A stretch of DNA of 58,994 bases from Nostoc sp. JL34. Lineage in GTDB: Bacteria > Cyanobacteriota > Cyanobacteriia > Cyanobacteriales > Nostocaceae. The translations under genes and the position numbers were made by a program. The stretch is from NCBI RefSeq assembly GCF_017114945.1, contig NZ_JABXKQ010000043.1, positions 1 through 58,994 of the forward strand, given 5' to 3'. This document shows positions 9,588 through 40,471 of this stretch, piece after piece (within the stretch, counting starts at the first letter, position 1; each line of letters starts with the position of its first letter). The notes under the pieces are model-generated. The model saw only the letters and a program-made list of their open reading frames with translations. It was not told where the DNA came from and ran no database searches.

Positions 9588-12500
9588 ATGTTGAACCGTT
9601 TGAAGATTGGAACCAAGATTGGAGTAAGTTTTGTCCTGAGTTTGGCAACTCTGACCACCATTGGTCTAATCTCCTACCAAAGCACCAATAATCTAATTGA
9701 AACTTCGCGCAGAGAAAACCATACCTACCAGGTGTTAAGTCAGCTTGAAGACCTGAACTTACAAATGACAAATGCTGAAACTGGGCAACGTGGTTACATT
9801 GTTACTGGAGAACAGCGCTATTTAGAACCTTATAATACTGCCATTCAAGTAGTGAATCAAAAAGTTAGGGAACTTCAGAGGTTAACAGCAGATAACCCCA
9901 ACCAACAGAGTCGGCTTGATATTTTACAGCCATTAATCGATCAAAAGCTGGCTGAACTTCAAGAAACCATTGACTTGCGTCAGAACCAAGGTTTTGAATC
10001 TGCTCAGAAGGTTGTTCTGACAGACCGAGGCAAGCAACTGATGGCTGAAATCCGCAAAGTTATCGAGGCAATGAAAACTGAGGAGAATAGACTGCTAAAA
10101 CAGCGCTCTGAAAATGCACAAGGAGCTGCCCAGCAAACCATCGCCAGTATTGTCTATAGTATTCCCTTATTTTCTTTGCTCTTAGCTTTGATCGGATTCG
10201 CCCTAACCAGACATATCTCAGTACCGCTGAAGCAAGTTTCTGATCTGGCAGAAAAAATGGCAGATGGGGATTTATCAGTGAGTTTACCAGATAGCGATCG
10301 CTTGGATGAAATTGGCGTGTTGACGCGTACCTTCAACCAGATGATCGTTAATCTGCGAAACACAACTAAAAAAAATGAGGAGCAAAACTGGCTAAAGTCT
10401 AATTTGGCTGAATTTACCCAGATGCTCCAAGGACAGCGAAATCTGGAAAGTGTCTCTAACCTAATCTTGTCAAATTTAGCACCACTGGTTGGGGCATCAC
10501 AGGGCGTTTTTTATGTGATGGACTCTATAAACAACCAGCCGATGCTGAAGTTGTTGAGTAGTTATGCTTACAAAGCCCGCAAAAACCTGGCAAATCAGTT
10601 TCGCTTGGGCGAAGGACTGGTGGGACAATCCGCCCTTGAAAAACAAAGAATCCTCCTGACGGAAGTTCCTAGTGACTATATCCGCATCAGTTCCGGTTTG
10701 GGAGAAGCACCACCGCTAAATATTATTGTGTTGCCTATACTATTTGAAACGCAGGTAAATGCCGTAATTGAACTTGCCTCTTTTGGGCCTTTTAACGAGT
10801 TGCACCTGACATTTTTAGAGCAATTAAGTGAAAATCTGGGTGTATTTTTAAATAACATCGCCTCACAATTACAAACCCAGCAACTACTTGAAGAGTCTGT
10901 TGCTTTAACAGAAGAACTGCAAACCCAGCAAGAAGAACTACAGCAAAGCAATCAACGCTTGGAAGAACAAGCACACGAGTTAGAGGAATCACAATTTCTT
11001 GTCAAGCAGTCTAACGAAGAATTACAACAACTAAATGAAGAGTTAGAAGAAAAAGCAGAATTGTTAGAAGTGCAAAATCAGGAAGTTGCCCGCAAGAATC
11101 AGGAAGTTGAGCGGGCAAGGCAGTCTTTTGAAGAAAAAGCTGAACAACTGGCGTTATCTTCCAAATATAAGTCAGAATTTCTCGCGAATATGTCCCATGA
11201 ACTGCGGACACCGCTAAATAGCCTGTTAATTTTAGCAAGGCTGCTAGCAGATAACTCTCTTAACAACTTGACCGACAAACAAGTAGAGTACAGTCGGACT
11301 ATTTACTCGGCTGGAAATGATTTGCTGGAGTTGATCAATGACATTCTAGATTTGGCAAAAATTGAGTCGGGTACTATGTTACTCGATATTGAGCAAATTG
11401 CTTTTGTAGATTTGCAGACATCTCTAGAGTATACTTTCCGGCAACTTGCTCAGAATAAAAAACTCGGTTTTACTATTCAACTGGATGATAAGTTACCCTC
11501 GACAATTTCTAACGACTCCAAACGCCTACAACAAGTACTGAAAAATCTCCTAGCTAACGCCTTTAAGTTTACAGAACAGGGAGGCGTGAAATTACAAATT
11601 AGCATAGCGGATGAGGCAGGTGAAGTTGATAATTCCATGATTGCTTTTGCAGTTAGCGATACGGGTATAGGCATTCCAGCCGAGAAGCAGAAAATTATTT
11701 TCGAGGCATTTCAGCAAGCAGATGGCACAACTAGCCGCAAGTACGGAGGAACTGGCTTGGGCTTGTCCATCAGCCGCGAATTGGCTCAACTGTTGGGAGG
11801 GAGAATTGAATTAGTCAGCCAACCAGGAGAGGGAAGCACCTTCACCCTCTACTTACCCAGGCGACAGGAAAATAATGCTAAAAATCCTCTCACCACACCA
11901 CCCCCTGAGCCAACTACCTCTATCCGCACAGCATCGACCATAAAAGAAGTGCCAATGGTGGAAAACAGACCTACAACTGTGGACACATCTGCGTCCGCGA
12001 AAATACTTACCACCTTCCCCAGCGAAATTCCAGATGATCGGGAAATAATTCAACCAGGCGATCGCATTTTGCTAATTATCGAAGATGACGATAAATTTGC
12101 CCGCATCTTACTAGATATGGCACGTGAGCAGGGCTTTAAAACCATTGTTGCTTTACAGAGCAAACAAGGTCTAGCACTCGCACAACAATTTAAACCTAAT
12201 GCGATTATGCTAGATATCCACATGCCAGAGATGGATGGCTGGACTGTGCTGGATCGTCTGAAACATAAACCTGATACCAGACATATACCAGTACACATCC
12301 TTTCTGTTGATGAAAGACAGCAACGGGGATTACATTTAGGAGCGATTACCTATCTACAAAAACCTGTTTCTCCAGAAGCGCTAACTCAGGTATTGACTGA
12401 GATTAAAGGCTTTATTGAGCGTCAGGTAAAAAATCTGCTGATCGTCGAAGATGACCCCGTACAAGCCCAAAGTATTATCGAACTGATCGGTAATGGTGAT

Positions 12501-13232
12501 GTCCAGAGTACAGCAGTGGGTACAGGTGCAGAAGCCCTCTCGATTCTGCGATCGCATCACTTTGATTGCATGGTACTGGATCTGGGTCTGCCCGATATGA
12601 GCGGGTTTGCACTAATTGAGCAGATAAAGCTTGAACCCAAGCTTTTGAAACTGCCGATTATCGTTTACACCGGCAAAGAACTCAGCCGACAAGAAGAAAC
12701 CCAGCTGCGGGGATTAGCAGAGACAATTATCATTAAAAATGTGCGATCGCCAGAGCGGTTGTTAGACGAAACTGCCCTGTTTTTGCATCGAGTGCAAGCA
12801 AATTTGCCTCCACCAAAGCGTCAAATACTAGAGCAACTACATCAAACAGACCCGGTGCTGGCTAATCGGAAAATTTTGATTGTGGATGATGACCTGCGAA
12901 ATATTTTTGCCCTCACCAGCTTTTTAGAAAGCTATCAAATGCAAGTGCTGTTTGCCGAAAATGGCAGAGATGGTATAGAGAGGCTACAAACTAATCCTGA
13001 CATTAATATAGTTTTGATGGATATCATGATGCCGGAAATGGATGGTTACCAAACCACCCGCGCCATCCGCCAGCAACAACAATTTCGCTCACTACCAATC
13101 ATTGCTTTAACTGCCAAAGCCATGCCAGGTGACAAGGAAAAGTGCATCGAAGCTGGAGCCTCTGACTACATCACCAAACCTGTAGATACTGAGCAACTGC
13201 TTTCACTACTCCGGGTTTGGCTGTATCGGTAA
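9588..13232 (+). CDS. CHASE3 hybrid histidine kinase with three receiver domains
   Basis: 1214 residues. Order: first membrane helix (about 10-30); periplasmic CHASE3 sensor domain with the family signature TGQRGYIVTGEQRYL; second membrane helix (about 185-205); HAMP; GAF (about 270-420); a long Gln/Glu coiled coil (about 420-520); HisKA with phosphorylatable His537 in MSHELRTPLN; HATPase ([17 protein letters not shown]); then receivers with phosphoacceptors Asp876, Asp998 and Asp1145. Receivers 1 and 3 keep the usual Lys-Pro; receiver 2 has Lys-Asn. It should sense an external signal and relay phosphate to partners elsewhere. The gene stands alone after a long spacer, and the next gene converges on it. 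Confidence 0.93.
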   Translation: MLNRLKIGTKIGVSFVLSLATLTTIGLISYQSTNNLIETSRRENHTYQVLSQLEDLNLQMTNAETGQRGYIVTGEQRYLEPYNTAIQVVNQKVRELQRLTADNPNQQSRLDILQPLIDQKLAELQETIDLRQNQGFESAQKVVLTDRGKQLMAEIRKVIEAMKTEENRLLKQRSENAQGAAQQTIASIVYSIPLFSLLLALIGFALTRHISVPLKQVSDLAEKMADGDLSVSLPDSDRLDEIGVLTRTFNQMIVNLRNTTKKNEEQNWLKSNLAEFTQMLQGQRNLESVSNLILSNLAPLVGASQGVFYVMDSINNQPMLKLLSSYAYKARKNLANQFRLGEGLVGQSALEKQRILLTEVPSDYIRISSGLGEAPPLNIIVLPILFETQVNAVIELASFGPFNELHLTFLEQLSENLGVFLNNIASQLQTQQLLEESVALTEELQTQQEELQQSNQRLEEQAHELEESQFLVKQSNEELQQLNEELEEKAELLEVQNQEVARKNQEVERARQSFEEKAEQLALSSKYKSEFLANMSHELRTPLNSLLILARLLADNSLNNLTDKQVEYSRTIYSAGNDLLELINDILDLAKIESGTMLLDIEQIAFVDLQTSLEYTFRQLAQNKKLGFTIQLDDKLPSTISNDSKRLQQVLKNLLANAFKFTEQGGVKLQISIADEAGEVDNSMIAFAVSDTGIGIPAEKQKIIFEAFQQADGTTSRKYGGTGLGLSISRELAQLLGGRIELVSQPGEGSTFTLYLPRRQENNAKNPLTTPPPEPTTSIRTASTIKEVPMVENRPTTVDTSASAKILTTFPSEIPDDREIIQPGDRILLIIEDDDKFARILLDMAREQGFKTIVALQSKQGLALAQQFKPNAIMLDIHMPEMDGWTVLDRLKHKPDTRHIPVHILSVDERQQRGLHLGAITYLQKPVSPEALTQVLTEIKGFIERQVKNLLIVEDDPVQAQSIIELIGNGDVQSTAVGTGAEALSILRSHHFDCMVLDLGLPDMSGFALIEQIKLEPKLLKLPIIVYTGKELSRQEETQLRGLAETIIIKNVRSPERLLDETALFLHRVQANLPPPKRQILEQLHQTDPVLANRKILIVDDDLRNIFALTSFLESYQMQVLFAENGRDGIERLQTNPDINIVLMDIMMPEMDGYQTTRAIRQQQQFRSLPIIALTAKAMPGDKEKCIEAGASDYITKPVDTEQLLSLLRVWLYR

Positions 13233-17311: not shown

Positions 17312-17353
17312 AATTCCGAATTATAAAGCTTCAGTCAAGGATAATTCGGAATT
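17312..17353. terminator. Shared hairpin between convergent genes
   Basis: AATTCCGAATTAT (17312-17324) pairs with ATAATTCGGAATT (17341-17353), a perfect 13-bp stem. It starts six bases after trhO ends and covers the last codons and stop of the converging kinase gene. It probably ends transcription on both strands. Confidence 0.65.
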
Positions 17354-18838
17354 TAAGGGCAAAATTACTGTAAATGTAGTACCGACTCCAACTTGACTTT
17401 TGACACTGATTTGACCTCTATGTACATCAACGCACCTTTTAACGATTACTAACCCCAATCCAGTCCCTTGAATTGATTTAACATTTGAGGCTCGGTAGAA
17501 TGATTCAAAAATTCGAGCTTGGTCTGGTTCGGGAATGCCCATACCTTGATCTTGAATATAAAAAACTGCTACTTTCTCAATCGGATCGCATATTAAATCA
17601 AATTGAATATTGCCACCTATGGGAGAATATTTAACCGCGTTTGAGAGCAGATTTACAAACATGTAATGTATGAGGACTTCATCCATGACAGCATTAGTAT
17701 GAGGACTATGACAAGTAAAAATAATTTCACATCTGCTACTTTTAACAATCGAAAAATCTTTGATCAACTCTCGACAAAATTGCTCTAAGTTAAGTGGAAT
17801 CGGGTTGAATATGAGTTTTTCGGCTTCTGCTCGACCCATAAACAGCACATCTTCCATCAGCTTTTCCATAGATTGTACAGCACCTTGAATTCGCTTTAAA
17901 TAGATGCCTTTTTTTGCATCTGTCAAATTTGCTCCTTGCATTTCTATGAGTTCTACTGCCGTTTGAATAACAGTCAAGGGATTACGAAACTCATGAGATA
18001 CGGTAGAGATAAATAGGGACTTGAGACGGTTAAGTTCTTGCTCCTTCTCCAATGCTTGCTCTAGCAATTTTGTTTGGCGTCGTTCGCTAATATCCCAGAA
18101 AACAACTACTACACCATTTATATGGTCAGATCCTCGCTTTAGTGGTGAAGCACTATCACCAATTGGAACTCTTTTGCCGTTTTTTGTAATCAGAGATGTG
18201 AATTCCCCTAAATAAACAACCTGTTGCTCCCGCAACACTTTTGTCACAGGGTTTTCTAATGTAGTCTCTGTAACTTCATCAACAATATGAAAAATTTTCG
18301 CTGCCTCATTTCCTAAAGCATCTTTTTGTTGCCAGCCAGTCAGCGCCTCAGCTGCGGGATTCATAAATGTCACTTTTCCCTGCTCATTTGTAGCAATTAC
18401 AGCATCACTCATCGAGTTTAAAAGGGTTGCTAACTGATCTCGATTTTCCCGCAGTTCCCGTTCTAATTGGTGCTTTAAAAGACCGATTTCAATCGCTATT
18501 TTTAAATCTTTTGTAGTAAATGGTTTAACGATATATCCGAAGGGTTGAGTAATTTTGGCTCTTTCTAAAGTATGATCGTCACCATAAGCTGTTAAATAAA
18601 TTACAGGCACATCTAACTGCTCACGAATATGGCTGGCGGTAGCAATACCGTCCATATCACCTTTGAGAATAATATCCATTAATACTAGTTCTGGTTGAGT
18701 TTCCGATGCCTTGGCAATGGCAACTTTTCCAGATGAAGCGGTACCCGTAACAATGTATCCTAGCTGACTGAGTTGGCTGGCAATAGTCCTAGCCACAATC
18801 ACTTCATCTTCAACAACTAAAATCCTAGCTTGACCCAT
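17321..18838 (-). CDS. Response-regulator/PAS histidine kinase
   Basis: 505 residues: an N-terminal receiver domain (1-125; acidic VVEDE, phosphoacceptor in VLMDIILKGDMDG, Lys in IVKPF), a PAS domain (about 140-260; DISERR at its end), HisKA with His in STVSHEFRNPLT, and HATPase (QDQGMGIP, GTGLGLVIV). A receiver placed before the kinase suggests the kinase is gated by phosphate from an upstream histidine kinase. The obvious donor is the 933-residue kinase whose gene ends seven bases upstream, in the same operon. Confidence 0.92.
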   Translation of the reverse strand: MGQARILVVEDEVIVARTIASQLSQLGYIVTGTASSGKVAIAKASETQPELVLMDIILKGDMDGIATASHIREQLDVPVIYLTAYGDDHTLERAKITQPFGYIVKPFTTKDLKIAIEIGLLKHQLERELRENRDQLATLLNSMSDAVIATNEQGKVTFMNPAAEALTGWQQKDALGNEAAKIFHIVDEVTETTLENPVTKVLREQQVVYLGEFTSLITKNGKRVPIGDSASPLKRGSDHINGVVVVFWDISERRQTKLLEQALEKEQELNRLKSLFISTVSHEFRNPLTVIQTAVELIEMQGANLTDAKKGIYLKRIQGAVQSMEKLMEDVLFMGRAEAEKLIFNPIPLNLEQFCRELIKDFSIVKSSRCEIIFTCHSPHTNAVMDEVLIHYMFVNLLSNAVKYSPIGGNIQFDLICDPIEKVAVFYIQDQGMGIPEPDQARIFESFYRASNVKSIQGTGLGLVIVKRCVDVHRGQISVKSQVGVGTTFTVILPLNSELSLTEAL

Positions 18839-18845
18839 TTGATAT

Positions 18846-21647
18846 TTACTGATGCAAAGTTAACTGCGTGAATTGGATTTTGAATCCTGTTCCATGATTT
18901 CGCTCTAGAGTAATGTTGCCTTCGAGTTGTTCTGTAACCAAGTCATATACTAAGGACAGACCCAAAGAATCAGTATTTCTCCAATCTAAATTCTCTGGTA
19001 AACCAATCCCATTGTCTCGGATAGTCATCTCGATACTATTACCGATATTGCGTAGAGCAATACTGATTGTACCTACTTGTTGGTTGGGAAAAGCGTGCTT
19101 GAGGGCATTGGAGATTAATTCGTTAATAACCAATCCACAAGCAATAGCTTGGTCAACATTCAAACTGACTGAATCTATATCAGTTTCTAGAGCAATTTTA
19201 CCAGGACATATTTGATAAGAAATGAGCAGACTTGCTGCTAAATTACTAATATAGTCAGCAACATCAATTTGCCCAATATTAGCGGAAGTATATAAATTTT
19301 TGTGAATTAGAGATATTGACTCAATTCGGTTTTGACTTTCTCGAAGAACTTTGATGACTTCCGGATCTTTGAGTGTTTGAGACTGAAGTTGTAATAGACT
19401 AGAGACAATTTGCAAATTATTTTTAACTCGATGATGAACTTCTTTTAAGAGAACTTCTTTTTCAGCTAAGGCATTTTTTAACTTGACTTGAGCTTTTTGT
19501 CTTTGAACAAGTTCAGTTTGAGCTTGCTCAAGGATACTGGATTGTTGAATTGCGATCGCTAATTGGACTGTAACTTGATCGAGCAAATCTAATTGATTTT
19601 CTTCCCACTTGCGGGAACCAGAGCATTGGTGAGCAACCAGTAAACCCCAAAGATGAGAGCCAGGGTTTTGAGAGCTTACTTCTAGTAAAATGGGCACAAC
19701 TAAATTTGCTTTGACTTCAAACCGTTCTAACAGGTGAATATGGCAATCAGTTAGTCCAGCTTCATAAATATTAGCGATCGCTCGTTTGTGTCCCTGATAA
19801 TACCCTACTCCTGCGCCTGTTTGAAAACAAGTATCATGAATCTCTACGCCCAAGGAAACTGTCCATCCAGGTTCCACGGATTCCGCCATAATTGTGCCGA
19901 TCATCTCAGAGTCAAACTGATAAACTACCACTCGATCGACCCCAAGTAAATCTCGCACTTCTTGAACTGTTGCATTCAGAATATCTTGGAGATTCAAAGA
20001 TTGACGAATCCGTTGAGCAACAGTTCGCATCAATTGCTCCCGTTCGGCTTGGGCTTTTAGAGCTAGTTCTGTTCGCTTCCGTTCTGTGATGTCTTGCCCA
20101 ATACCGATAATTTGACCATTGGAAAGTTTAACATTAGTCCAAGACGTATCCAGTAAATAACCATCGCGTACCTGAGTTCTAAAGTCACCCCAATTGCGTT
20201 GTGCAGACTGAATAAAATTAATTACATACTGTCGATATTCAGGATTAGGATATAACCCTTCCAAGACATCACGAGTTTGAAAATCTTGAAATTTCCAACC
20301 TAGAACACTTTCCCATTCTTGGTTCACCCACTGGAGTTTGCCATTGGCATTAATCAGGGTAATCATCAACGGTATACTCTCAAAAATTATTCGTAAAAAC
20401 TCATTTTGCTCTTGGAGTTTTGTCTCGGCATTTTTTCGGTCATTAATATCATAAAATACTGTAAGTATTGCTAATTCATTATTAAAATTTAAATATTGTA
20501 GGGAAGCGATCGCCCAAAAATAAGTTCCATCTGCTCTTTTTAATTGAATTTCATAATTATGAATAATCCTATGTTGATTAAGAACTTCTAGAAGCACTTT
20601 GAAATCTTCAAAATCATGATACAAATCTAATATTTTTTTATGATTAACTAAATGCTCTGGAGAAAATCGAAATGTTTGAAGCAATTCTGGATTAGCATAT
20701 AAGATCAACCCATCAGATACGCGCGAAATAATTAATGGAACAGGAATAGCTTCAGAAATGGCTCGAAACCTGGCTTCACTTTCCTGAAGAGTTTTTTCTA
20801 TTTTTTTGTATTCTGTGATATCTCGTATATTAACCAAATGAGCGTTATAACGGCCATAGTCTATTGGATGTGTGAAAATTTCAACATCAATAATCTGTCC
20901 ATTTTTTCGCCGATGTCGCCATTGTCCAGCAAAGTATAAGTTAGGGTACTTTTGTCCTAAATATTCCATGAAGATAGGCACATTTTCGACAGGGCGAATG
21001 TCAGTTATTCGCATTTGTAAGAACTCTTCTCGTGAGTAGCCATAGTGAACAACAGCAGCTTCATTTACATCTAAAAATTGCAGATTATTCTGGTTATATA
21101 CCCACATTGGGTTAGGGTTTTTGGAGAAAAGGAGATTAAAACTCCTTTGGCTATCATCAATATTTTTTTGCAGTTCTAACTCTAAATATCTGATTATTTG
21201 TCGAGCCAATTGTTGTAAGGCTACTTGTTCTTTAACACTTAAGTTTCGCGGTGCAAAATCAATTACGCAAAGACTACCTAATGCAAAGCCGCTTGAGGTA
21301 ATCAGCGGAACTCCCCCATAGAAGCGGAAATAAGGATTTGATGTGACAAGGGGATTTGTTGCAAACCGTTCATCTTGCAAAGTGTCAGGAATAATTAATA
21401 TTTGATTTTGCAAAATAGTATAACTACCAAAAGAAATGCTTCGAGAGACTTCCGATATAGTTACTCCAGTTTTTGACTTGAACCATTCTCGTTCTGCATC
21501 AACTAGGCTAATGAGAGCGATTGGTGTTTCACAAAGGTTAGCAGCTAGTTGAACTAGTTCATCGAAAACTTCTTCTGGTGGCGTATCTAAAATTTGATAT
21601 TGATTAAGTACTTCTAGACGTTGGCTTTCATTCTCAGGAAATAGCAT
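18846..21647 (-). CDS. GAF-PAS-GAF histidine kinase (HisKA_2 type), candidate photoreceptor
   Basis: 933 residues, no membrane helix. Order: GAF (about 1-155), three PAS domains (about 165-285, 290-405, 410-525), a second GAF (about 545-705), then a HisKA_2 kinase with EVHHRVKNNLQ (His739 likely phosphorylated) and HATPase. The second GAF carries both cysteine motifs of cyanobacteriochromes: Asp-Thr-Cys-Phe (DXCF, Cys607) and Cys-His (Cys635) in IYEAGLTDCHIHLLE. It may therefore bind a bilin; this is inference from motif. The REC-PAS kinase gene follows after seven bases, making a two-kinase operon. Confidence 0.9.
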   Translation of the reverse strand: MLFPENESQRLEVLNQYQILDTPPEEVFDELVQLAANLCETPIALISLVDAEREWFKSKTGVTISEVSRSISFGSYTILQNQILIIPDTLQDERFATNPLVTSNPYFRFYGGVPLITSSGFALGSLCVIDFAPRNLSVKEQVALQQLARQIIRYLELELQKNIDDSQRSFNLLFSKNPNPMWVYNQNNLQFLDVNEAAVVHYGYSREEFLQMRITDIRPVENVPIFMEYLGQKYPNLYFAGQWRHRRKNGQIIDVEIFTHPIDYGRYNAHLVNIRDITEYKKIEKTLQESEARFRAISEAIPVPLIISRVSDGLILYANPELLQTFRFSPEHLVNHKKILDLYHDFEDFKVLLEVLNQHRIIHNYEIQLKRADGTYFWAIASLQYLNFNNELAILTVFYDINDRKNAETKLQEQNEFLRIIFESIPLMITLINANGKLQWVNQEWESVLGWKFQDFQTRDVLEGLYPNPEYRQYVINFIQSAQRNWGDFRTQVRDGYLLDTSWTNVKLSNGQIIGIGQDITERKRTELALKAQAEREQLMRTVAQRIRQSLNLQDILNATVQEVRDLLGVDRVVVYQFDSEMIGTIMAESVEPGWTVSLGVEIHDTCFQTGAGVGYYQGHKRAIANIYEAGLTDCHIHLLERFEVKANLVVPILLEVSSQNPGSHLWGLLVAHQCSGSRKWEENQLDLLDQVTVQLAIAIQQSSILEQAQTELVQRQKAQVKLKNALAEKEVLLKEVHHRVKNNLQIVSSLLQLQSQTLKDPEVIKVLRESQNRIESISLIHKNLYTSANIGQIDVADYISNLAASLLISYQICPGKIALETDIDSVSLNVDQAIACGLVINELISNALKHAFPNQQVGTISIALRNIGNSIEMTIRDNGIGLPENLDWRNTDSLGLSLVYDLVTEQLEGNITLERNHGTGFKIQFTQLTLHQ

Positions 21648-34497: not shown

Positions 34498-35004
34498 ATG
34501 AAAAAGATTTTACTCCGCTTTTTGGGTTTGATTGTGATTTTGCTACTAGCCTTTGGGTGGATAATACTTAATCCCAAACCGGCTTTCGCTCAGATAAACA
34601 CAATTAATTACAACAATATAAATTTAGAAAATCGTGACTTTTCTCATACTAATTTGGCAGGTGTAACTTTTGTAGCAGCAGAAATGCGGGGGACGAATTT
34701 TCAAGGAGCGAATTTAACCAACGCAATTCTGACTAAAGGAGTTTTATTAAAGGCAAATTTGGAAGGTGCGAACTTGAGCGGCGCTTTAGTCGATCGCGCC
34801 ACTATGGATGGTGCTAACCTGAAAAATGCCATCTTTACTGAAGCAACTTTGACCCGCAGCCGCTTTTTTGATGCTGATGTCACTGGCGCTGATTTTACCG
34901 ATGCTTTAATTGACCGCTATCAAGTGTCACTGCTGTGTGAAAGGGCTGATGGCGTAAATCCGGTTACGGATGTGTCAACGCGAGATAGTTTGGGTTGTCG
35001 ATAG
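34498..35004 (+). CDS. Exported pentapeptide-repeat protein
   Basis: 168 residues. A signal peptide or anchor (MKKILLRFLGLIVILLLAFG) ends near AFAQ. Pentapeptide repeats of the A(N/D)LXX type run from about residue 43 to 143 (for example ANLTN, ANLEG, ANLSG, ANLKN), forming a right-handed beta helix. A short C-terminus contains two Cys (LLCERAD, SLGCR) that could form a disulfide. Similar proteins are found in the cyanobacterial thylakoid lumen; function unknown. It stands alone, flanked by a strong hairpin upstream. Confidence 0.88.
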   Translation: MKKILLRFLGLIVILLLAFGWIILNPKPAFAQINTINYNNINLENRDFSHTNLAGVTFVAAEMRGTNFQGANLTNAILTKGVLLKANLEGANLSGALVDRATMDGANLKNAIFTEATLTRSRFFDADVTGADFTDALIDRYQVSLLCERADGVNPVTDVSTRDSLGCR

Positions 35005-35125: not shown

Positions 35126-38100
35126 CTAATTACCACTGGGAATTTCAATTAAAAACTCTGTTCCTTCTCCTGGTTTAGAGGAACACTTAATCTGACCATG
35201 ATGTTTTTCAACTATTATTTGATAGCTGATAGACAATCCTAACCCTGTACCTTTACCTGGTGCTTTGGTGGTAAAGAAGGGGTCAAACATGTGCGATCGC
35301 ACTTCTTCTGGAATCCCAAGACCATTATCAGCTATTCTAATTACAATCTGGTTCTGAACGGCTTGCGTACTAATCCAGATGGTCAAAGGTATTTTCGGAC
35401 ACGTTTGCAATAACTTCAAATATCTTTGCTGTATAGTGTTAAACTTTTCCTCTAATGCATCAATACTGTTACTCAAAAGATTCATAAACACTTGATTTAA
35501 TTGTGCTGGATAGCATTCGAGCAAAGGGAAAGTACCGTATTCTTTAATAATCTTAATAGCTGGACGTTCAATGTTATTTTTGAGTCGATGCCCTAAGATT
35601 AGCAAAGTACTATCCAAGCCTTCATGAATATCTACGGGCTTCAATTCAGCTTCATCTGTACGAGAAAAGTTACGCAGTGATAGCACAATTTCACAAATCC
35701 GCTCTGTTCCTAGTTGCATTGACTCAAGGGTTTTGGGTAAATCTTCAATGATAAAGTTCAAATCAGTTTTGTCAATTTGCTCTTGGACAGTTGGCAACAG
35801 TGAAGAGTTTTGTTGGTAAATTTTCACTATCTTTAGCAGTTCTTGAGTATATTCATTTAAATGAATCAGATTGCCAAAAATAAAACTGATGGGATTGTTG
35901 ATTTCATGGGCAACTCCAGCAAGTAGTTGTCCTAATCCTGCCATCTTTTCACCCTGAATTAACCTGGTCTGAGTTTGTTTTAATTCTTGCAGAGTTTGAG
36001 TCAGTTCTAAGGTTTGACGTTTAGTTTGTTCGAGTAATTCTGCTTGTTGAATCGCAATTCCTAATTGCACCCCGACTTGAGCCAGTAAATTAATTTCTTC
36101 CTCTTTCCAATAACGCGGTTGCGAATTTTGATAAGCAACTAATAATCCCCATAATTTTTCACCTTCCCGAATCGGAACAAAGGTTTCGTTACGCGGAAGT
36201 TCGTTATCGTCATCTGTGTCCTCAAAAGTTTCTATAATCATTGGTTGGGCTTGTACAACAGGTTTCCAACCATCTTTAAAAGAATCTGCTACAAATTTAC
36301 CGCTCCAATCCGGGTTGAAGCGGTAGATTGCAATTCGCTCGACTTCGAGCAACTCTCGCACAGCTTGAGTAGTGGTTCTAAAAATAGTTTTAATATCGAG
36401 TGACTGGCGGATTTTATCAATTGTTGCAGCCAGCAGTTCTTGCCGTTCCATTGCTTTCTCCCGTTCAGTGGCTTCTGCTAACTGGACAACCTGCATTTGA
36501 ACTTGCTTTAAATAAGAATCCTGTTTTAATGCTACTCCCAATTGCTCGGCTATTTGACTAGTAAATTCAATTTCAGAGGGTTGCCAATAACGAGGAGCGG
36601 TGCATTGGTGAATACACAGCAATCCCCAAAGTTCACCATTTTTCAATAGAGGTGCAACCAGATTTGCCCGCACTTGAAATTTTTCTAGGATTTGGACGTA
36701 GCAACCGGGAAACTTTGCTTGATGAATGTCAGCGATCGCATTTACCCGACCTTGGGCGTAAAGGTGTGCAAAGTTTTCCCCGAAGCAATAATCATAAACT
36801 TTTTCTGCTATTACCGAGTTACATTCAGGTACAAAATCCTCAGAAATAAATTCTCCTTCCCAATCTTTTTGCGGGTCAAAACGAAAGACTGTTACTCTGT
36901 CTGCTTGCAACATTTGCCGGGCCTCGGTGACAGTAGTCTGGAAGATTGTATCTAAATCTAAAGACTCCCGAATTCGAGTAATCACACTAGTTAATGTCTT
37001 TTGTTGCTCTGCTTGGTACTGAGCGTATGCCAGCAACTTATGGTGTCGGACTGCTACCCCAATTTGTGTACCAATTTTGAGCAGTGATTCGACTTCATAA
37101 GATTGCCACTGTCTGGGTGAGGTATTTTGGTAAGCAGCGATGATTCCCCAAAGTTGATCTCCCTGGAGAATAGGGGCAGTTGCAAAGGCTTTTGCCTGAA
37201 ATTGCTCTAACAGGGTTACGTGACAGTCTGTTAATCCAGCTTGATAAATGTCATTGACGGTAAATGTCTGGTTATTAACGTAACGTCCCCCTTGCGTTTG
37301 TTGTAAATAAGTATCAGCGATCGCAGGCTGAACGCCAACTAAAGGAGTCCAGCCTTCAGCAAATGATTCAGCAACAAAGTTACCACTCCAATCTGGATTG
37401 AAGCTAAATATGGCAACTCGATCAGCTTGCAGCAGCTTGCGTATTTCTTGAGTTGTGGTTTTAAAGATGGTTTCAATATCAAGAGGTGAGCGAATTTCAT
37501 CGACAATCTGAGCAATTACTTGGTCGCGCTGAACTGCTTGAGCTAATTTTGCGGCTTGCAATTGAACTTCATGGAGATGCCTCGCTTGTTGAATCGCTAC
37601 GGCAAGATGGTCAGCAATTTGACGAATAAATTCAATTTCTGATTCTTTCCAGTCACGAGTCTCACTGCACTGATGAATGCAAAGCAATCCCCACAGTTCC
37701 TTGTCTCGCGATAGAGGAACAACAAGATTGGACTGTACCTGGAATTTACTCAAAATTGCCAGATGACAATCACTCAGTCCCGCCTTGTAAATATCTGCTA
37801 TTGCTTGGACTTCACCTTGTTGATAACTGGAAGTAAATTGTTCTCCAAAGCAGTGATCGTAAACTTTTACTGCCATTGCTGAGTCCCAGCCAAGTGCAAC
37901 ATCTTCAGAAACAAATTCTCCCTCCCAGTTTTGTTCACGGTTGAACTGGAAGACTGCTACTCGGTCAGCATTTAGCAACTGTCGCACTTGTGTAACGGTA
38001 GTTTGAAAAATTGTTTCTAAGTCAAGAGACTCCCGAATCCGCACAATTACACTCGCCAAAGCCTTTTGTTGCTCTAGTTGCTCTTGAAGTTGAGCGCTTG

Positions 38101-38143
38101 ACAAGAGAAGTTGATGTTCCGTGAAATTTGAATTGGGTTCCAT
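35126..38143 (-). CDS. Four-GAF histidine kinase, candidate multi-chromophore cyanobacteriochrome
   Basis: 1005 residues, soluble. GAF1 (about 30-190) has Asp-His-Cys98-Phe plus Cys126-His. GAF2 (about 210-370) has [12 protein letters not shown] and Cys307-His. GAF3 (about 380-545) has Asp-Tyr-Cys453-Phe plus Cys481-Tyr. GAF4 (about 570-705) has neither Cys. A coiled coil leads to a kinase with GVAHEINNP (His746) and an HATPase ([20 protein letters not shown]). GAF1 and GAF3 fit the two-cysteine DXCF class, and GAF2 fits the red/green class. Bilin binding is inferred from these motifs. No response regulator lies next to the gene. Confidence 0.9.
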
Positions 38144-38866
38144 TGCTCTGGATTATGTCGTTTTTATACAAAGGTTCCTGACACAAAACTTCATAGGGTT
38201 AAAGGGTGTCAAAAATATGACAAACTGTAAATTTTTACAGTGTTCAACTATTTCCCAGAAGACGGTTATGAGAGAAGGCAGGAGGGAGAAGGACGTTCAG
38301 CGATCGCTCAGTCGAGCCGCAGAAGACAGGAGAAAAGAAGTATGAATGAAAACTTTCCTTCTCTACGAGAGGCTGCGCCAACGACAAGCTCAGGAACCAT
38401 AGTGCTGGGTGATTACCCAGTTGAAATAGAAGATACTGGTGCAAGACGTGCAGCCCGAGATATAAAGCTTCCACAGCCTAAGTCCCACGTTTTTAAGAGT
38501 GGGTTACTCCTGCCTCCTGATTGTTATAGTTCCCCTTTCTTGATCTATCCTCGTAATGGGTTAAAAAATAATTTTGGCTTGTCCACAACAGAGGAGATGA
38601 CTAAGTTAGTGTTGCCCAGGCAAATCAGAAAAGCGATCTGACCCCTTTGGAATCGGGATCTAACCAACTTGCAATTCGCTGTATCATAGCAATACTCAGG
38701 AATTTAATTTTAAGCGTAGGCGTAGCCCAAAGTAGACATCGCTCCGCCAATGCAGGGGCGAAGGGGTTTAAAATTACTAATTTATCAAAATTTACCTGAC
38801 AGACTGCGGGATTTCAGGTTAAATGTTTTAAAGTATGCACTCTGCAAGAGTTGTCGGGTATTATTC
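38144..38866. other. 720-bp spacer with repeat fragments
   Basis: Between the divergent four-GAF kinase and murJ. It contains an open frame (38240-38641) that I do not believe: its translation has no family signature and runs through repeat DNA (CTCTACGAGAGGCTGCGCC at 38362-38380; GGCGTAGCCCAAAG near 38715). A piece around 38481-38515 (GTCCCACG, then GTGGGTTACTCC) resembles the hairpin at insertion-sequence right ends, but no transposase is left. Both promoters must lie here. Confidence 0.45.
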
Positions 38867-40471
38867 GTGACACAACAAGACCAAAAACCCTCTCGTTCTT
38901 TCGCTGGAATTGCTGGCATTGTTGCCGCAGCCACATTAATTAGTAAAGTCTTCGGTTTAGTACGGCAGCAAGCGATCGCTGCCGCATTTGGTGTTGGTGC
39001 TGCTGCCACTGCCTATAGTTATGCCTATATTATCCCTGGCTTTCTATTGATCTTACTCGGTGGCGTAAATGGACCATTACACAGTGCGCTCGTCAGCGTT
39101 TTAGCGAAGCGGCGGCGAGAAGAAGCGGCTCCCCTAGTGGAAACTGTGACAACGCTAGTCGGTGGAGTGCTGTTACTAGTGACAGTTGCTCAGATTTTCT
39201 TTGCGGATGCGATCGTTGATATAGTTGGTCATGGTTTGGAAGAGACAACCAGAGCGATCGCCATTCAACAACTCCGCATTATGGCACCGATGGCTTTATT
39301 TGCCGGTTTAATTGGCATAGGCTTCGGTACTCTCAATACAGCCAATCAATATTGGTTACTCTCCATTAGCCCTTTATTATCCAGTATTACCGTTGTTGGC
39401 GGTCTTGCTATCTTGGCAATGCAACTGGGCAAGGACATTATTAAGCCGGAGTACGCTTTAATCGGGGGAATGGTATTAGCTTGGGGAACTTTGGCAGGAG
39501 CAATTCTCCAGTGGTTAGTGCAGCTAATTGTCCAGTGGCGGTTAGGGTTGGGCACATTACGCCTGCGGTTTGAGTTTAAATCCCCAGGCGTTCAAGAAGT
39601 TATCAAAATCATGACTCCGGCAACAGTTTCCTCTGGAATGATGCCTATTAATGTTGCCACTGACCTTTATTTTGCTAGTCCTATCCCTGGGGCGGCGGCA
39701 GGATTTAACTATGCCAATCTATTAGTCCAAACTCCCTTAGGGATTATTTCTAATATCATTTTACTGCCTCTATTACCGATATTTGCCAAACTTGCTGGCC
39801 CCGAAAATTGGCCAGAGTTAAAATCACGCATTCGCCAAGGACTGCTACTCACTGCTTTTACGATGTTACCGCTAGGGGCACTGATGGTGTCGCTATCAGT
39901 ACCCATTGTGCAGGTGGTATATGAACGCGGTGCTTTCAAGCCAGAAGCCACACAGCTAGTTTCATCATTGTTAGTGGCTTATGGAATTGGGATGTTTGTC
40001 TATTTGGGACGTGATGTCTTGGTGCGAGTATTCTATGCTTTGGGCGATGGACAAACACCTTTTCGCATCAGTATTTTTAATATCTTGCTCAACATCTTAT
40101 TAGATTGGTTTTTCGTTAAACCTTTTGGCGCTCCCGGTTTGGTGTTAGCAACAGTGGGTGTAAATTGTAGCTCAATGTTAATGCTGTTATGGTTGCTTGA
40201 TCGCAAACTCAATGGTTTACCTTGGCGTGAGTGGAGTTTGCCGATTCTGGGTTTGGCTGGTGGTAGCGTGCTAGCTGGGGTAGCAAGCTATGGAACTTTG
40301 ATTGGTTCTCAGCACTTGTTAGGTAAAACGGGTTTACTAATTCTGGTGTTGCAGTTGTGTGTATCTGGCTTCGTAGGGCTTGTGGTGTTTGCTGCGATCG
40401 CTTCATGGCTGAAAATACCAGAGGTGAATATATTTATATCTCGTCTACGTCAGCGTTTTTTGAAGAAATAA
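38867..40471 (+). CDS. murJ: Lipid II flippase MurJ
   Basis: 534 residues from a GTG at 38867 (reads VTQQDQKPSRSFAG); a longer frame upstream reads repeat DNA. About 14 membrane helices. Signatures: ATLISKVFGLVRQQAIAAAF near the N-terminus, GGVNGPLHSALVSVLA, RVFYALGDGQTPFRIS, and VNCSSMLMLLWLL. MurJ flips the peptidoglycan precursor lipid II to the periplasmic face. Length and topology match the MviN/MurJ family. It is a single gene, divergent from the GAF kinase. Confidence 0.93.
   Translation: MTQQDQKPSRSFAGIAGIVAAATLISKVFGLVRQQAIAAAFGVGAAATAYSYAYIIPGFLLILLGGVNGPLHSALVSVLAKRRREEAAPLVETVTTLVGGVLLLVTVAQIFFADAIVDIVGHGLEETTRAIAIQQLRIMAPMALFAGLIGIGFGTLNTANQYWLLSISPLLSSITVVGGLAILAMQLGKDIIKPEYALIGGMVLAWGTLAGAILQWLVQLIVQWRLGLGTLRLRFEFKSPGVQEVIKIMTPATVSSGMMPINVATDLYFASPIPGAAAGFNYANLLVQTPLGIISNIILLPLLPIFAKLAGPENWPELKSRIRQGLLLTAFTMLPLGALMVSLSVPIVQVVYERGAFKPEATQLVSSLLVAYGIGMFVYLGRDVLVRVFYALGDGQTPFRISIFNILLNILLDWFFVKPFGAPGLVLATVGVNCSSMLMLLWLLDRKLNGLPWREWSLPILGLAGGSVLAGVASYGTLIGSQHLLGKTGLLILVLQLCVSGFVGLVVFAAIASWLKIPEVNIFISRLRQRFLKK

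Follow-up and report, generated by a model that had tools for sequence, protein, structure and literature searches.

Cyanobacteriochromes, kinases that carry GAF domains of mixed type in series, and the loss of domains from such proteins are already known. The histidine kinase of Nostoc sp. JL34 examined here has four GAF domains, and parts of it resemble several of the described systems. GAF1 shares with the DXCF-type GAF of TePixJ (3vv4, 4fof) the DXCF Cys and the Cys-His pair, separated by a distance of 28, and the model of GAF3 matches TePixJ (4fof) with a TM-score of 0.87 and AnPixJg2 with 0.89 (by target length). However, TePixJ stands apart from the 52-row branch of the GAF tree that holds GAF1 and GAF3 (99*), and GAF3 differs from it by its Cys-Tyr. 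The XRG red/green cyanobacteriochromes NpR6012g4 (6bhn) and AnPixJg2 (3w2z) share D-T-x-L-Q, the TQGGRY block and Cys-His with GAF2, but they have the Trp of WXDXXL where GAF2 has Ile, and GAF2 falls outside their clade (94). NpR5113 of Nostoc punctiforme presumably has the same domain order, i.e., a DXCF GAF (g1) followed by a red/green one (g2). PMC5240096 counts NpR5113g2 among the red/green GAFs; our literature search found no paper on NpR5113 orthology. PPHK, the dual-sensor histidine kinase of Leptolyngbya JSC-1 (6oap, 6oaq, 6ob8), is the best solved match for both GAF1 and GAF3 (6oap, E 3.9e-39 and 1.3e-43, respectively), and, as described in PMC11480761, its kinase bears sensor domains one after another, as the JL34 protein does; unlike GAF1 and GAF3, its GAF has Tyr at the site of the DXCF Cys (VEDQYF). 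PtxD of N. punctiforme, by its description in PMC6696110, resembles the kinase in having many GAFs in series (up to seven).

From the sequences of the JL34 protein and its relatives, we consider it probable that GAFs 1-3, with their cyanobacteriochrome cysteines, bind bilins covalently, and that GAF3, which is a mosaic, is the product of an in-frame recombination that joined GAF3 to GAF4 in a five-GAF ancestor. By title and abstract, and within the limited library searched, the literature on recombination or duplication of cyanobacteriochrome GAFs yielded no hybrids from an intradomain crossover. Such reports may nevertheless exist.

The kinase gene, its neighbours and its relatives

The window, i.e., the whole stretch of DNA analysed (58,994 nucleotides), holds the following features in and around the kinase gene:

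35126..38143, minus strand: four-GAF histidine kinase gene, an ORF encoding 1005 aa
35744..35935, minus strand: dimerisation/phosphoacceptor region, with the predicted acceptor His746 (HEINNP) at 35906-35908
35135..35509, minus strand: HATPase_c, with the N, G1, F and G2 motifs (NQVFMN, DNGLG, FDPFF, GTGLGL)
34498..35004, plus strand: neighbouring pentapeptide-repeat protein, synteny anchor
38750..40471, plus strand: neighbouring MurJ, synteny anchor

Over the whole protein, Pfam finds PF01590 (GAF) in four stretches (309 bits) and HATPase_c (85 bits), with HisKA at 20.1 bits, below its cut-off of 26.9 bits. The acceptor His and the N, G1, F and G2 motifs that mark a two-component histidine kinase are all there, at residues 746 (HEINNP), 883 (NQVFMN), 939 (DNGLG), 953 (FDPFF) and 965 (GTGLGL). 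Among the 25 NCBIfam matches listed, no equivalog scored above its cut-off. Not one 19-residue Kyte-Doolittle window of the kinase exceeds 1.6, against 86 in the neighbouring MurJ; as no part of the chain is strongly hydrophobic, the soluble kinase of the original prediction is plausible. No response-regulator partner adjoins the gene, whose flanks encode the pentapeptide protein, a LytR-type protein and MurJ. An ORF between the kinase gene and MurJ (38240-38641, plus strand) has no Pfam match and only short and patchy similarity in relatives, and it is probably not a gene.

The best 120 of 6938 proteins, together with loci from named genomes, gave 156 distinct sequences, made up of 107 four-GAF rows, 37 five-GAF rows and 12 others. 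The JL34 kinase's own clade comprises 101 of the 107 four-GAF rows; one of the six outside it, L040, is a five-GAF fragment without GAF1. The five-GAF proteins have the domain order DXCF-His, XRG-type, DXCF-His, DXCF-Tyr and truncated GAF. A scan across Nostocaceae (E <= 1e-200) found matches in 74 of 217 genomes, which overlap with the named-genome loci. Within the genus, 42 of the 53 listed genomes match; 29 have an open four-GAF frame, nine an open five-GAF frame, and the frame is partial or interrupted in the remaining four.

Predicted bilin-binding domains

The features of GAF1 and GAF2, and the cysteines of GAF3, are as follows:

37574..38095, minus strand: GAF1, residues 17-190, DXCF type with Cys-His (motifs, tree)
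37850-37852 and 37766-37768, minus strand: Cys98 (DHCF) and Cys126 (before His127) of GAF1
37034..37552, minus strand: GAF2, residues 198-370, XRG side, with Ile275 at 37319-37321 and Cys307 at 37223-37225
36785-36787 and 36701-36703, minus strand: Cys453 (DYCF) and Cys481-Tyr of GAF3

GAF1 has Asp-X-Cys-Phe with Cys-His and GAF3 has Asp-X-Cys-Phe with Cys-Tyr, all residues being those that the original prediction had named. The two cysteines lie 28 apart in both domains, the same as in TePixJ 3vv4. Among 107 aligned relatives, Cys98, Cys126 and His127 of GAF1 are conserved in 104, 105 and 100, and Cys453, Cys481 and Tyr482 of GAF3 in 107, 107 and 106, respectively. In a tree of 111 of the 124 GAFs (the 13 without a canonical Cys were omitted), GAF1 and GAF3 fall within a 52-row set with a support of 99*, of which 48 rows are DXCF. 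Both thus combine the canonical Cys, the Asp-X-Cys-Phe Cys and the tree grouping of DXCF cyanobacteriochromes, and the tree placement that had been proposed as a check puts all three GAFs inside the cyanobacteriochrome tree. The mean pLDDT of the AlphaFold models is 88 for residues 17-371 and 84 for 371-735, with Cys453 and Cys481 both on helices. The best explanation is that GAF1 and GAF3 would be two-Cys DXCF sensors with a predicted blue-type state.

GAF2 carries the block [12 protein letters not shown], then Cys307-His308, and has no DXCF Cys; the Cys-His is found in 107/107 rows. It matches 6bhn (NpR6012g4, E 2.4e-55) and 3w2z (AnPixJg2, E 4.7e-52), also 5dfx (Slr1393g3), so that among solved structures all three GAFs match cyanobacteriochromes best, and it lies inside the 54-row tree set that holds the XRG references (99*). 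The block and the Cys-His named in the original assignment to the red/green type are there, but the Trp is absent. In PMC11284453, XRG domains are defined by the Trp in WXDXXL, those with Cys at that site make phycoviolobilin and have green/teal cycles, and the NpR3784 lineage has Val there and is red/green. At this site GAF2 (IADTYL) has Ile275, the residue being I, M or V in 107/107 four-GAF and 37/37 five-GAF rows, and it falls outside the 12-row Trp clade (94). Because of this replacement of the Trp, in GAF2 and in its relatives, the colour of GAF2 is unreadable from its sequence, and red/green would be only a guess.

At least one of the three GAFs might bind no bilin and be a structural domain or one for another ligand, a reading that we regard as rather unlikely. 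The loss of the GAF1 cysteines in a few relatives (Cys98 and Cys126 in the counts above) would fit it, as would the loss of each GAF3 Cys in 8/37 five-GAF proteins, whose GAF2 and GAF4 Cys are kept in 37/37, and the Tyr in place of His after the Cys of GAF3. Against it, Cys307, Cys453 and Cys481 are kept in all 107 four-GAF rows.

The mixed order of DXCF and XRG-type domains had been thought unusual, a view that we reject, as 25 of 31 multi-GAF fragments combine both types in what is a similarity-biased sample (fragments with at least two full GAFs, 3 from the JL34 genome and 28 from relatives that a similarity search with GAF3-GAF4 had retrieved). In two of the 25, L004 and L115, the DXCF GAF lacks the canonical Cys.

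Other sensor kinases were seen elsewhere in the window. A second likely DXCF cyanobacteriochrome candidate is a PAS/GAF HisKA_2 kinase of 933 aa (18846-21647, minus strand), whose GAF has DTCF Cys607 and Cys635-His, again at a distance of 28. Directly beside it lies a gene for a receiver-PAS-histidine kinase (17321-18838, minus strand). A CHASE3-HAMP-GAF hybrid histidine kinase with three receiver domains is encoded at 9588-13232 (plus strand).

GAF3 is a mosaic of two repeats

GAF3 of the JL34 kinase divides into two parts that resemble different domains of the five-GAF form:

36812..37030, minus strand: N-part of GAF3, residues 372-444, like GAF3 of the five-GAF form (diagnostic sites, trees)
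36803..36814, minus strand: putative crossover, residues 444-447 (440-461 with single parent pairs)
36509..36805, minus strand: C-part of GAF3, residues 447-545, like GAF4 of the five-GAF form (diagnostic sites, trees)

The 24 diagnostic sites are the positions that distinguish GAF3 from GAF4 in the five-GAF form. As far as residue 444, the JL34 domain is GAF3-type at 7 of these sites and of neither type at 2, and from residue 447 it is GAF4-type at 15/15. The consensus of the 101 clade members is GAF3-type at 8 and neither at 1, then GAF4-type at 15/15, and under site shuffling the chance of an equally clean 8 + 15 order is 1 in 490,314. As controls, GAF3 rows from five-GAF proteins carry the residue of their own type at 91% of the sites and that of the other type at 2.5%, and GAF4 rows at 90% and 6%, rates that are not independent of the consensus used. 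When single parent pairs are taken, one switch accounts for 34/44 to 41/49 informative sites.

The same pattern is seen in the DNA. The median identity of the N-part is 82.0% to GAF3 versus 74.7% to GAF4, with GAF3 nearer in 16/16 five-GAF loci, and that of the C-part is 80.8% to GAF4 versus 64.0% to GAF3, with GAF4 nearer in 16/16 loci. Grouping of the C-part with GAF3 is rejected by the DNA tree test (p-AU 0.0035), and p is 0.066 for the N-part with GAF4. The C-part joins GAF4 in the protein half-trees (100*); the AU tests on protein half-domains reject neither the N-part with GAF4 (p 0.459) nor the C-part with GAF3 (p 0.108). In five-GAF loci, GAF3 and GAF4 are identical in register over stretches of 14 to 23 bases, of which some are close to switch points (424-434, 492-497) and others elsewhere.

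The hybrid is under purifying selection in both its parts, with dN/dS of 0.111 in the N-part and 0.142 in the C-part (21 genes; these and the later dN/dS values are medians over non-independent pairs). A loss of the repeat could have been tolerated, as GAF3 of the five-GAF form has itself lost each Cys in 8/37 proteins. The putative crossover in the JL34 gene retains the Cys pair of the five-GAF GAF4, and the four-GAF gene L031 retains the Cys-His of GAF3. Since one complete Cys pair was left, the hybrid can be expected to function still as a sensor.

Probable recurrence and direction of repeat loss

In 34 five-GAF proteins, one branch separates all copies of GAF3 (93) and one all copies of GAF4 (100*), which places their pair before the five-GAF radiation. 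In two trees the four-GAF rows lie dispersed among those with five; each tree calls for 5 changes, and starred branches force at least 4 of them (trees of 10 four-GAF rows, counting P0101, with 34 five-GAF rows and without distant outgroups). A clade of the JL34 group with L030, L031 and L056 is rejected in the tree of the last GAF and kinase (p 5e-9) and in that of GAF1+GAF2 (p 7e-56). As pairs in the two trees, the JL34 group gives p 2e-4 and 4e-6 with L030 alone and p 0.004 and 3e-4 with L031 alone, and L030 with L056 gives p 8e-4 and 2e-5; the JL34 group with L056 alone is rejected in one tree (p 0.0018) but not in the other (0.053).

The other four-GAF lineages also have other switch points, namely 488-496 in L031 (45/50 sites explained, with P0019 as the parent), 421-424 in L030 (46/53 sites) and 418-422 in L056 (42/43 sites, parent P0013; 404-406 with another parent), and therefore contraction probably occurred at least three times. 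In five more distant four-GAF genes, the residue is GAF4-type at position 411 in 5/5, at 434 in 4/5 and at 444 in 5/5, where the JL34 kinase has the GAF3-type residues M411, S434 and V444. The residues of its C-part are mostly common to the more distant four-GAF proteins, i.e., ancestral, so only the N-part bears a derived signal. In synteny, MurJ adjoins 10 of 16 intact five-GAF loci and also the four-GAF L056, and the pentapeptide gene adjoins 6 of the 16; at the L030 and L031 loci neither was seen nearby. The trees, this partial synteny and the outgroup states favour an in-frame loss of one repeat of about 175 aa, which would have dropped out through a crossover of GAF3 with GAF4 in an ancestor with five GAFs. 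Judged by these sequences, the history probably had four GAFs at first, then one duplication, and then at least three, likely four, contractions.

That four is likely the oldest GAF number, given that distant four-GAF proteins such as L051 and L053 have a single GAF3 (with Cys-Tyr and a GAF4-type C-part), also lends something to another reading, in which the JL34 clade simply keeps the ancestral four-GAF state, the five-GAF form arose once by duplication of GAF3, and the mosaic look came from later divergence. We consider this unlikely, because both trees intersperse four-GAF with five-GAF rows, the JL34 protein is GAF3-type at 411, 434 and 444 where the distant proteins are GAF4-type, and L031 stays GAF3-type as far as about residue 488, its Cys-His being of that type too; the present trees also suggest that five-GAF genomes branch below the JL34 clade. 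The scatter itself could come from a single contraction that passed between strains through horizontal exchange of the gene's middle part. Parts of the gene are indeed mobile, in that the kinase half of P0101 groups with five-GAF strains and the five-GAF P0001 joins the four-GAF clade in the GAF1+GAF2 tree; as these proteins group differently by part, strains swap gene pieces and the trees may mislead. Such a spread is nevertheless very unlikely to explain the pattern, as the switch points differ (444-447, 488-496 and 418-424), and the halves of L031 match GAF3 and GAF4 of its own five-GAF neighbour P0019 (45/50), as those of L056 match the two domains of P0013 (42/43).

Recurrent contraction by recombination between GAF3 and GAF4 is thus the reading that we prefer. 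A broader proposal, which we offer tentatively and hold to be somewhat doubtful, is that intradomain recombination serves as a recurrent device, by which adjacent unlike sensors would be fused, at a point differing by lineage, into chimeric photoreceptors with a full Cys pair and mixed parental pocket walls, so that strains of one genus would have four or five sensors and different hybrid colours. If this is true, these natural photosensor hybrids would be ready-made tests of which half sets colour and which half signalling, and parents and hybrids can be compared, since the same genus has both four-GAF and five-GAF strains.

A truncated but constrained GAF4

36032..36466, minus strand: GAF4, residues 560-704, truncated, without Cys (alignment to GAF2, model)

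The Cys-less fourth GAF that had been described next to the kinase is indeed there, and it lacks the whole attachment segment; relative to GAF2, 28 residues are missing, [28 protein letters not shown], the stretch bearing the bilin Cys. The pattern of the deletion junction is found in 160/176 family entries, fragments included, and in 12/39 further loci, some of which are too short to reveal it. In the AlphaFold model, residues 631-641 of GAF4 have pLDDT below 50. Its dN/dS is the lowest of the protein, 0.076 in four-GAF and 0.058 in five-GAF proteins, versus 0.145 and 0.123 for the kinase. Decay of GAF4, which we had also considered, is rejected on these values in both forms. As the most constrained part, GAF4 is likely a relay rather than debris, and from its sequence its role may be that of a relay or a dimer-forming domain.

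In the working that we propose, GAF2 would be a one-Cys sensor beside the two-Cys GAF1 and GAF3, and photo-switching in each GAF would be passed along long connecting helices. The signal would then cross the truncated, chromophore-less GAF4 to reach His746 and, from there, a distant response regulator. A conserved chromophore-less GAF beside the kinase would be a defined relay candidate.

Other domain complements were observed among the relatives. At the MurJ locus of Nostoc favosum CHAB5714 (L062:5911-7485), the orthologue begins inside GAF2 and is without GAF4 and the phosphoacceptor region, which may be true decay or an assembly error. L134 (G345), a five-GAF orthologue, is broken into two open frames, one of 785 aa and one of 387 aa. 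L131 (G225), of 829 aa, has only three GAFs, the first like GAF1 but Cys-less, the second DXCF with Cys-Tyr and the third truncated, and seems to have lost its XRG-type GAF. P0090, of 1582 aa, has seven GAFs by motif, two of them DXCF, four XRG-type or CY-type, and a truncated last one.
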